A stretch of 64,000 nucleotides of DNA from Armatimonadota bacterium (GTDB lineage: Bacteria; Sysuimicrobiota; Sysuimicrobiia; Sysuimicrobiales; Humicultoraceae): positions 850,059 to 914,058 of the forward strand of contig JAVKHP010000001.1 of NCBI GenBank assembly GCA_031459855.1, given 5' to 3'. A program made the translations under genes and the position numbers. This document shows, piece by piece, positions 11,256 to 14,678 of the stretch; the stretch's first letter is position 1; every line of letters begins with the position of its first letter. The notes under the pieces were generated by a model. It had not been told where the DNA came from. It made no database searches and saw only the letters and a list, made by a program, of their open reading frames with translations.

Positions 11256-11314
11256 TTTAGGAGAAACTAAATTAGTCTGGGTTAAATCTTGCGGGCTGGA
11301 GCGGTGGCTGTCAA
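11256..11314 (-). promoter_or_regulatory. Promoter and probable DtxR/MntR-type operator of the metal operon
   Basis: An AT-rich island in GC-rich DNA directly upstream of the multicopper oxidase. TTTAG (11256-11260) and CTAAA (11267-11271) form an interrupted palindrome, and ACTAAATTAGT (11266-11276) is a perfect 11-bp one. TTAG/CTAA half-sites are typical of DtxR, IdeR and MntR boxes. On the minus strand a consensus TTGACA (11309-11314) lies upstream. A weak -10 (AAGATT, 18 bp spacing) puts the start near 11278, so the operator would cover the first transcribed bases and reach the ribosome site AAAGGAGG. Confidence 0.6.
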
Positions 11315-11445
11315 GCCCGCTACGAGGGCGGTCATCTCCTGACGGGCTCCGCAGGCGACGTCCACGGGCACACGCACCGGTCCGCGGTACCCGTGCGGCG
11401 ACTCATGGGCCCAGGGCAGGGCGGGGCGCATCCGAGCGCCCGCGC

Positions 11446-11610
11446 TTAGAGTCGCCAGTCGCTGGATCGGATGAAGACGATGACCGCGCCGCGCGGGCCG
11501 CGGATCGTCTCGAACGTCTGCTGGCGGCCGCCCTGGTCTTGGGCGGCAAATGGCGGGATCCGCGTTCCAACCGCCGGCCCCACCGCTGCGGTCGGCGCCT
11601 CGTCGCTCAT
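11446..11610 (-). pseudogene. Truncated AhpC/TSA-type redoxin (54 codons)
   Basis: The 54 codons look like the N-terminal third of a peroxiredoxin-like redoxin: VGTRIPPFAAQDQGGRQQTF then RGPRGAVIVFIRSSDW. In intact relatives the run VFxRSADW is followed at once by the peroxidatic Cys (CPYC or CPFC). Here it reads RL then TAA, so the catalytic residue and the remaining two thirds are missing. No continuation is recognisable in any frame downstream. The ATG overlaps the stop of the CoA-binding gene (ATGA), so it was the third gene of the redox operon. A functional 54-residue peptide is possible but unlikely. Confidence 0.6.
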
Positions 11611-12038
11611 GGCGTCCCCAGCAGCGCGTCGTGGGTCGTGGCCATACAGGTGTCCATGACGACCTCGAGCCCGGCGGCACGGGCGCGGGCGGCAGCCTCC
11701 TCGTGGACGACCCCCGGCTGCATCCAGACCACCCGCGCGCCGATGGCGATGGCGTCGTCGACGATGGGCGGCACGAACGCGCTGCGCCGGAAGATCAGCA
11801 CCACGTCCACGGGCTCGGGAACGTCCCGCAGGCTCGGGTAGGCACGCTCGCCCAGCACCTCGGTGAGCCTGGGGTTCACCGGCACGATGCGGTAGCCTGC
11901 CTCCTGGAGGTACCGCGCCACGGCGTGGCTGGGCCGCTCCGGACGGTCGCTCAACCCGACGACCGCGATCGTCCGCGTGGCGCGCAGGATCGCGGCGAGG
12001 GCCTCGGGAGCCGGTCGCCGCGCGTCGGGCACGCTCAT
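11607..12038 (-). CDS. CoA-binding domain protein (YccU-like)
   Basis: A 143-residue Rossmann-fold protein of the small CoA_binding family. ILRATRTIAVVGLSDRPERPS (residues 16-36) forms the nucleotide loop. YRIVPVNPRLTEVLGERAYP and GARVVWMQPGVVHEEAAARA match the conserved blocks. Proteins of this kind bind CoA; their role is not established, though redox protection by CoA-thiol modification has been proposed for relatives. The ATG overlaps the glutaredoxin stop (ATGA) and its own stop overlaps the redoxin fragment, so the three were made from one message. Confidence 0.9.
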   Translation of the reverse strand: MSVPDARRPAPEALAAILRATRTIAVVGLSDRPERPSHAVARYLQEAGYRIVPVNPRLTEVLGERAYPSLRDVPEPVDVVLIFRRSAFVPPIVDDAIAIGARVVWMQPGVVHEEAAARARAAGLEVVMDTCMATTHDALLGTP

Positions 12039-12268
12039 CCCTCCAGCAGCTGGTCGAGCTTCGCCCGGTTGAACCCCACCACGGCCTCGCCGTCGATCAC
12101 GGTCACCGGCGTCGCCGAGTAGCCCATCTGCAGCAGTTCTTCCAGCGCCTGCTCGTCGGCGCTCACGTCCTTCTCGGTGTACGCCACGCCCCGTTCGTGA
12201 AGGAACTCCTTCACCTTGCGGCAGAACAGTCAGCCAGGCTGGGAGTAGACGACGACCGTCCTGGGCAT
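12035..12268 (-). CDS. Glutaredoxin-like selenoprotein (in-frame UGA as selenocysteine)
   Basis: Read through one TGA, the frame gives a complete 77-residue glutaredoxin: MPRTVVVYSQPG, then TGA at codon 13 (12230-12232), then LFCRKVKEFLHERGVAY, a TPVTVIDGEAVVGF block (cis-Pro and GSH-site loop) and the end KLDQLLEG. The TGA replaces the first Cys of the CxxC active site, giving U-L-F-C with C16. Sequence conservation continues normally beyond it, and a hairpin follows at the right distance (12197-12214). That combination fits selenocysteine rather than decay. ATG 12268 has GGAGGGAG upstream. Ordinary gene calling would split or miss it. No sel genes are in the window. Confidence 0.8.
12197..12214 (-). 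promoter_or_regulatory. Probable bacterial SECIS hairpin of the glutaredoxin gene
   Basis: In the coding strand GTGAAGG and CCTTCAC form a perfect 7-bp stem with the tetraloop AGTT. The loop begins 22 nt after the in-frame TGA. Bacterial SECIS elements are short hairpins within the coding sequence whose apical loop, carrying a G, sits about 16-37 nt from the UGA. This one fits in length, distance and loop G. The encoded residues (VKEFLH) are also typical glutaredoxin sequence, so some of the symmetry could be chance. Confidence 0.6.
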
Positions 12269-12438
12269 GGCGTGTCTCCCTCCGACACGGCGTGGGACTC
12301 ACAGCGCACCGTCTCCCGGAACGTGTTCCCGCCCCGGACCGCCGACACGCTGCGTCCGATCCGAACAACCGCGCGGCCCGGTGCTGTATTCCGCACCGTA
12401 CGGGGCGGCGGGATCCGGCTCCCCGCGCAAGAAATGTG

Positions 12439-12611: not shown

Positions 12612-12753
12612 TCCTGACAGTGGCGGATGGGGCGCCCGCCCCCATATCGCCGAGCACCTGCGCGTGACATCCGGCCGGGGTGAAGGCCCGCGCGCTGGCT
12701 GCTGCCTTGCGGTGAGGCGCCGCTACGGGTACGAACAGGGCCTCGTGCGGGCC

Positions 12754-13383
12754 ATGACCGTGGGCATCATCCACGCCAGCCCGTTGATCCGGGACGCCGT
12801 GGCCGGCCTGCTGGGCCAGCGGCCCGGTGTCCGCGTGGTGGCCACCTTCGGCAGCGGGCGGGAGGCGCTGACGGCGCCCATCGCAGAGGAGCACGTCCTG
12901 TTGTACGACCTGGCCACGCACAAGGCCGATGGCAGGGCGGTGCTGGCGGCCCTCCGCCAGCGGGTGCCCGGCGGCAAGATCCTCATCTGGGGAGTGGCCG
13001 ACGACGACCAGGCGATCGTCGAGTGCGTGCGCGCCGGCGCCGCCGGGTGCGTGCTGCAGGGCACGTCCGCCGACGACCTCGTGGCGGCGGTGCACTCCCT
13101 GGCCGACGGGATCCCGCCCGTCTCCCCCAGGGTCGTCACGACCCTGTTCAGCTACGTGGCACGCCTGCAGGCGGGCGAGCCCGTGCCTCCCGTGGAGGCG
13201 CTCACGCCGCGAGAAGAGCAGATCCTGCAGCTGCTGGTGGAAGGTCTCTCGAACCAGGAGATCGCCCAGCGCCTGTACCTGCAGCCCCAGACCGTGAAGA
13301 ACTACGTCCACCTGGTCCTGCAGAAGCTGAACCTCCACAGCCGTCTGGAAGTCATCCGGATGTTTCGGGCCGGTAAGCCCTGA
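12754..13383 (+). CDS. LuxR/NarL-type DNA-binding response regulator
   Basis: 209 residues. The N-terminal receiver-like domain (about 1-115: VGIIHASPLIRDAVAGLLGQ, HVLLYDLATHK with a candidate phospho-Asp, then GVADDDQAIVECVRAGAAG) is joined to a LuxR helix-turn-helix: LTPREEQILQLLVEGLSNQE, then QTVKNYVHLVLQKL (about 145-200). Such proteins activate transcription when phosphorylated; some are orphan regulators. No histidine kinase is adjacent. ATG 12754 is chosen; an in-frame GTG lies 9 bp earlier, and longer starts (12601) lack family similarity. A nearly identical but truncated inverted copy lies at 14224-14611. Confidence 0.9.
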   Translation: MTVGIIHASPLIRDAVAGLLGQRPGVRVVATFGSGREALTAPIAEEHVLLYDLATHKADGRAVLAALRQRVPGGKILIWGVADDDQAIVECVRAGAAGCVLQGTSADDLVAAVHSLADGIPPVSPRVVTTLFSYVARLQAGEPVPPVEALTPREEQILQLLVEGLSNQEIAQRLYLQPQTVKNYVHLVLQKLNLHSRLEVIRMFRAGKP

Positions 13384-14223: not shown

Positions 14224-14611
14224 TCAGTGCTTGCCGGCCCGAAACATCCGGATGACGTCCAGACGGCTGCGGAGGTTGAGCTTCTGCAGAACCGCCCTGC
14301 AGCACGCACCCGGCGGCGCCGGCGTGCACGCACTCGACGATCGCCTGGTCGTCGTCGGCCACTCCCCAGATGAGGATCTTGCCGCCGGGCACCCGCTGGC
14401 GGAGGGCCGCCAGCACCGCCCTGCCATCGGCCTTGTGCGTGGCCAGGTCGTACAACAGCACGTGCTTTTCCGCGATGGGCGCCGTCAGCGCCTCACGCCC
14501 GCTGCCGAAGGTGGCCACCACGCGGACACCGGGCCGCTGGCCCAGCAGGCCGGCCACGGCGTCCCGGATCAACGGGCTGGCGTGGATGATGCCGACGGGT
14601 ACAGGTCCCAC
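14224..14611 (-). pseudogene. Truncated inverted copy of the LuxR-type regulator
   Basis: From GTG 14611 the frame matches residues 3-100 of the regulator at 12754 with two substitutions (to CVLQG). About 251 bp are then missing between two CTGCAG sequences that are about 264 bp apart in the intact gene. The remaining C-terminal codons (VLQKLNLRSRLDVIRMFRAG, ending KH then TGA at 14224-14226) are in another frame. The whole linker and most of the DNA-binding domain are lost. The frameshifted product would be a receiver with an unrelated tail running to 13937. CTGCAG microhomology suggests deletion by slippage or recombination. Confidence 0.85.
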
Positions 14612-14678
14612 GACTCCCCACTATCACCGTCGCGGGGGCGTGGACTGCTGACTGTGAGGCAGCAAACAGCCGCGGGCC

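Follow-up and report, generated by a model that had tools for sequence, protein, structure and literature searches.

The window considered here (the whole stretch of 64,000 nucleotides of Armatimonadota DNA that was analysed) carries on its minus strand, at 12268..12035, a gene of 77 codons followed by a TGA stop. We consider it to be an intact glutaredoxin gene in which the UGA at codon 13 would be decoded as selenocysteine (Sec), with a probability of about 96%. The Sec reading is based on the intact frame, the location of the UGA at the catalytic position, the cysteine three codons further on, a hairpin found in most UGA-containing homologues, and the genes of the Sec pathway. A selenoprotein had been proposed before in a sequence-only reading, and the Sec genes, the occurrence of Cys or UGA in the homologues and the published constraints on bacterial SECIS elements (bSECIS) all support that proposal. 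The product would be a functional Sec-containing dithiol glutaredoxin of the YruB/NrdH-like type with a UxxC motif; its electron donor and its partners are much less sure.

The glutaredoxin gene

The in-frame TGA (12232..12230, minus strand) occupies the first position of the redox motif U-L-F-C. Translation of the minus strand gives MPRTVVVYSQPG-U-LFC-RKVKEFLHERGVAYTEKDVSADEQALEELLQMGYSATPVTVIDGEAVVGFNRAKLDQLLEG, then the TGA stop; past codon 13 the glutaredoxin frame runs LFCRKVKEFLHERG... up to LLEG and the stop, so that, as had been claimed (for a strand that was not given), codon 13 is the sole interruption of the 77 codons. The plus strand at 12035-12268 was considered as the coding strand and rejected, as it does not carry the glutaredoxin. 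Upstream of the ATG, a GGAGG-type ribosome site is visible by eye.

The protein matches the Pfam family Glutaredoxin (PF00462) with 60.2 bits (gathering score 22.9, E 2.2e-16). An AlphaFold2 model built on 36 aligned sequences has a mean pLDDT of 96.2. Position 13 (TGA being read as C), C16 and P54 are invariant across the 36 sequences picked for this alignment, from which four CxxS rows were left out. P54 is presumably the cis-proline of the thioredoxin fold, opposite the active site. The assignment to the glutaredoxins thus relies on a PF00462 score above gathering, the UxxC motif and, as far as the model goes, a thioredoxin fold with P54.

When the codons that follow the UGA are compared with those of 12 loci of near relatives, pN/pS ranges from 0.24 to 0.53: the frame downstream of the UGA is in use and under purifying selection. 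The list of open reading frames under table 11 contains none of at least 60 aa that represents the glutaredoxin, in line with the earlier expectation that standard annotation loses it: gene calling that takes UGA as a stop is expected to miss this protein or to start it past the catalytic residue.

Selenocysteine machinery

The genome to which the window belongs (3.19 Mb, 97.66% complete) contains the full set selA, selB, selC (tRNA-Sec) and selD, as the sequence-only reading required. The selA gene (C1:2656168-2657523, 549 bits) adjoins selB (C1:2654244-2656115, 349 bits), and the gene for tRNA-Sec (C1:2651865-2651956, 66 bits, anticodon tca according to ARAGORN) lies 2.3 kb from this pair, the three genes spanning at most 5.7 kb. 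The selD gene (G000:C1:1149867-1150790, locus L009, 388 bits) has its own in-frame TGA, at CAG-U-ASK, and is likely to encode a selenoprotein itself, so that a second gene of the same genome also appears to call for UGA decoding.

By our own count from the table of matches, 22 of 118 genomes have a glutaredoxin match that contains an in-frame TGA, which in 20 of them was read as lying at the active site, G029 and G115 being outside this reading. A selA match over the cut-off is found in 16 of these 22 genomes and was not found in G015, G017, G035, G042, G073 and G115. Five of these six have a selD over the cut-off, each with a TGA, and selB is over the cut-off in G073 only. Four of the six are less than 90% complete, G017 is at 93% and G115 at 97%. 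G115 is a case of its own: it has two UGA-containing glutaredoxin matches and a UGA-containing selD, no selA match, and for selB only partial, elongation-factor-like matches, which its completeness of 97% does not explain.

Codon 13 in the homologues

A tblastn search over 98 loci, some of which had been chosen for other genes, yielded 78 rows in which the site is covered, one row that falls short of it having been dropped. At the site, 51 rows have TGA, 15 have TGT and 11 have TGC; the remaining row, L059, has GGC there and a TGA beside it as the result of a one-codon insertion. Removal of three rows identical over 63 nt leaves 75 distinct sites, including the window gene (L021), with UGA at 49, Cys at 26 and no other residue; these counts cover the sites that were read, and the search of 118 genomes listed further matches outside them. 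The homologues were expected to show Cys in place of UGA, and they do so at 26 of the 26 distinct sites without UGA. The second cysteine, at +3, is common to the 49 UGA genes and 22 of the 26 Cys genes, the remaining four having Ser.

TGA also stands at this site throughout the rest of the window's group, 12 loci that belong to 11 genomes as we read the records, and the UGA-containing glutaredoxins are spread over several phyla. The family tree, built on too few columns, requires six or more changes of the Sec/Cys label, two of them forced by the starred branches, with no direction given. Plasmid and phage records (136 and 181, respectively) also have matches, of which the five listed for each are all below 60% identity. 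We also note that a genome of Methylomirabilota contains two different UGA-containing glutaredoxins in tandem (L065:3001-3539), the stem of the second being different (GCCGAAGA/UCUUCGGC).

The hairpin

A putative upper stem-loop of a bacterial SECIS element, GUGAAGG-AGUU-CCUUCAC, is found at 12214..12197 of the minus strand. It consists of seven base pairs and a 4-nt AGUU loop whose second nucleotide is G (-8.9 kcal/mol), its stem starting 15 nt and its loop 22 nt after the UGA, exactly as had been described. According to the parts of a 2026 review available to us, the bacterial SECIS model asks for 3-9 nt in the loop and 4-16 bp in the upper stem, a G among the first two nucleotides of the loop, a spacing of 16-37 nt and a minimum free energy of at most -7.5 kcal/mol (PMC13188914). 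The SECIS prediction called for earlier was made with a custom script, and the window hairpin falls within all four published constraints, the value of -8.9 kcal/mol being that of the upper stem-loop alone. An Rfam search of 11900-12400 gave only a microRNA match (E 0.89), far under the gathering score.

The fold of a 61-nt stretch is unremarkable: of 200 dinucleotide shuffles, 29 do as well (z -1.0). Since this test of the whole stretch is uninformative, the hairpin was assessed by synonymous recoding and by comparison of the homologues. Only 7 of 500 synonymous recodings of the window gene reach its hairpin (p 0.016), which makes the hairpin, on its own, only moderately unlikely. The same test was applied to each gene, the best SECIS-like hairpin being compared with those of 500 synonymous recodings with a cut-off of p<=0.02: 37 of the 49 UGA genes have a hairpin that beats the recodings, and not one of the 26 Cys genes does. 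Among the 49 UGA genes, 46 have a loop that begins 22 or 23 nt past the UGA, and the upper stem alone reaches -7.5 kcal/mol or lower in 18 of the 49 and in 0 of the 26 Cys genes, a further 16 UGA genes having values from -7.0 to -7.4 kcal/mol. With this comparison across the family, the hairpin is beyond chance.

Covariation was analysed in 46 of the 49 UGA genes (L033, L034 and L035 were omitted), split by the form of the loop into a set A1 of 14 (the window's group and L036) and a set A2 of 32, mostly from other phyla. The 7-bp stem of A2 is 94.2% paired, with changes on both sides in four of the seven pairs (18 cells), and none of 500 shuffles scores as high; sliding the partner strand lowers the pairing to 33-73%, in a test whose structure was derived from the same sequences, which favours it. 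The stem of A1 is 99.1% paired and nearly invariant, and 219 of 500 shuffles score as high, so that it has too little variation to judge covariation. The compensatory changes, as judged from these alignments, are those of the more distant relatives (A2), and the glutaredoxin family clearly illustrates how a SECIS-type hairpin evolves by compensatory changes within a coding sequence.

Twelve of the 49 UGA genes miss p<=0.02; five of these (L033, L034, L035, L076 and L080) have a short hairpin at best and may use another form of SECIS. In L033, L034 and L035, which belong to family f7, it is only 4-5 bp long.

Alternative explanations

That the gene is a pseudogene, inactivated by a nonsense mutation in codon 13, is very unlikely. 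In favour of this idea, UGA terminates translation in nearly every gene and the adjacent redoxin is truly broken; yet the same UGA is found at 49 of 75 distinct sites in several phyla, and this conservation already refutes the idea for the family, to which one may oppose also the purifying selection on the frame past the UGA and the Sec pathway genes of the genome. A sequencing or assembly error that turned TGC or TGT into TGA would agree with the codons of 11 and 15, respectively, of the 78 homologous rows. We regard it as extremely unlikely, because the 12 other loci of the group, in 11 genomes, all have TGA, and because the hairpin of the window gene beats its recodings, unlike that of any of the 26 Cys homologues. 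As for a reassigned code in which UGA means Trp or Cys throughout, nothing speaks for it other than the in-frame UGA itself, and its likelihood is practically nil: the glutaredoxin itself terminates at TGA, which already refutes it, the stop of the gene in 22 inspected loci is TGA in 13, TAG in 8 and TAA in one, and tRNA-Sec, selA and selB are present.

A last alternative accepts Sec decoding and differs in function only. The protein would be a selenium- or metal-binding carrier, as proposed for the UXX-star families, rather than a thiol-disulfide glutaredoxin. To judge by their names and descriptions, these families (NF041212, NF041211, NF041114 and NF047338) are glutaredoxin-like with a Sec near the N-terminus, similar to the window protein, and their models do match it, at 59.1 bits for a cut-off of 66 (NF041212), 47 for 100, 32.6 for 72 and 40.5 for 97. 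The accessible text of the 2026 review indicates that the Sec of UXX-star proteins may bind metals (PMC13188914). However, the scores are under every cut-off, and the window protein has a second Cys, as do all 49 UGA genes, whereas the UXX-star families are listed with UxxT or GxGU in what we have of the same review (PMC13188914). We therefore find the carrier function improbable, and keep the dithiol Sec-glutaredoxin as the preferred reading.

Neighbouring genes and a second selenoprotein family

The stop of the glutaredoxin gene overlaps the start of the next gene (ATGA, 12038..12035). The latter (11607..12038, minus strand) codes for a CoA-binding domain protein of 143 aa (PF13380, E 4.2e-47), as the sequence-only reading had it, and its stop overlaps in turn the start of the remnant of a redoxin. 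The former redoxin suspected there is indeed broken, into two remnants without the Sec codon. One (11446..11610, minus strand) comprises 52 N-terminal residues up to '...SSDW', which falls just before the Sec codon of the relatives, and meets a stop two codons later. The other (11282..11407, minus strand), in another frame, corresponds to the C-terminal region; in a comparison with 13 redoxins it matches that of L104 with E 6.5e-8, and three others with E 3e-4 to 5e-4. The simplest reading is that an internal deletion removed the Sec codon from the window's redoxin. No other match near a full redoxin copy was found in the same genome: the strongest one (E 2.0e-10) is none other than the remnant, and the next ones have 26-35% identity over the first 140 residues.

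The window's group, which is weakly supported as a clade in the family tree, comprises 13 loci (12 relatives and the window). The CoA-binding gene follows the glutaredoxin in 11 of them and the redoxin follows directly in the other two; a redoxin lies within the examined flank in 4 of the 13. Neither gene was found at the loci L033-L036.

In the relatives, the redoxin reads ...SADW-TGA-PYCK... and matches AhpC-TSA, with a DsbD_N match below its cut-off. The motif across the family is (S/T)ADW-U-PYCK or similar (loci L022, L023, L026, L099-L106 and L108-L111, L099 being the redoxin copy of L026 and L104 that of L022). The Sec position is a stop codon, TGA, in all 11 full or nearly full redoxins (L099-L105 and L108-L111); a stop is likewise present there in the 113-residue fragment L106 and in the weak match L115, and absent in L107. 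Minimum-energy folding gives a hairpin after the UGA in the three redoxins looked at. These sequences indicate that the redoxin family found near the glutaredoxin is a second selenoprotein, whose UGA is kept in relatives and lost in the window.

Elsewhere in the window, a gene that we named by eye, from its translation, as a LuxR-type response regulator has an inverted, partly deleted duplicate: 12738-13073 pairs with 14283-14618 (94% over 336 nt) and 13314-13383 with 14224-14293 (91% over 70 nt).

Proposed function

The mechanism that we propose is as follows. SelB carrying Sec-tRNA-Sec would recognise the hairpin, and UGA-13 would be decoded as Sec. The selenolate of U13 would then attack disulfides of partner proteins, or oxidised intermediates, and C16 would act as the resolving thiol that resolves the mixed selenenyl-sulfide. 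Re-reduction would probably be carried out by a thioredoxin-reductase-like enzyme or by a small thiol other than glutathione, since no match to glutathione synthetase (GshB, PF02955) was found in the genome; a GCS2-type ligase has one match there (63 bits). In close relatives, the Sec-redoxin whose gene lies close by is a likely partner. As this redoxin is broken in the window's genome, the glutaredoxin would serve other partners there.

It is also conceivable, and for now speculative, that the Sec-glutaredoxin, the CoA-binding protein and the Sec-redoxin (whose C-terminal part is weakly DsbD-N-like) form in this lineage a glutathione-free, selenium-on-selenium relay, perhaps with CoA or CoA-protein disulfide as the thiol currency, and that the window's genome retains the Sec-glutaredoxin but is in the course of losing the Sec-redoxin. 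Our literature search found nothing on a combination of Sec-redoxin and DsbD.

Relation to known glutaredoxins

The kind of selenoprotein is already known, and the window gene adds an example from a poorly studied lineage. As far as the available parts of these sources go, Sec-containing glutaredoxins (UxxC) were catalogued in papers of 2005 and 2006 (PMC1088965, PMC1794560) and appear in reviews of 2022 and 2026 (PMC9312934, PMC13188914). The Grx selenoprotein family of these reviews, with WP_010943784.1 as an example, shares PF00462 and UxxC with the window protein and differs in lineage, the likeness being one of family and motif, with the sequence of WP_010943784.1 outside the comparison. 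The literature search found nothing that pairs Sysuimicrobi- names with a selenoprotein, and the phrase 'selenocysteine-containing glutaredoxin' had no match. For this little-studied lineage, we thus add a well-supported selenoprotein, and a second one in relatives. Among named records, 'Terrabacteria group bacterium ANGP1' and 'Armatimonadetes bacterium 13_1_40CM_64_14' come nearest, both of which we take to belong to the phylum Sysuimicrobiota (CSP1-3).

The closest described protein is Grx1 from Clostridium oremlandii (cGrx1), which, according to the accessible part of its description, is natively a selenoprotein and has the motif U(or C)PXC (PMC7642778). It is the best PDB match by sequence (7c10 and 7c12, E 2.7e-16), and its dithiol form 7c10 is the best fold match to the window model (TM 0.92, 46% identity). 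The best NCBIfam model is the same for both, TIGR02196 (YruB-family glutaredoxin), likewise below the cut-off of 88.55: the window protein scores 76.7 bits and 75 residues of cGrx1 score 85.1. Kim et al. (2011) reportedly described a pair of Sec-Grx and Sec-MsrA in C. oremlandii. The two glutaredoxins differ in their motif, U-P-H-C in cGrx1 and U-L-F-C in the window, and in their surroundings: the partner proposed for cGrx1 is the selenoprotein MsrA and its reductant is GSH, in the portion of the paper at hand (PMC7642778), whereas no GshB match was found in the window's genome, where the glutaredoxin has a CoA-binding protein and a redoxin for neighbours. The window glutaredoxin also resembles, in sequence and fold, the NrdH redoxins and the thioredoxin-like protein BC3987, which unlike it are presumably Cys proteins.
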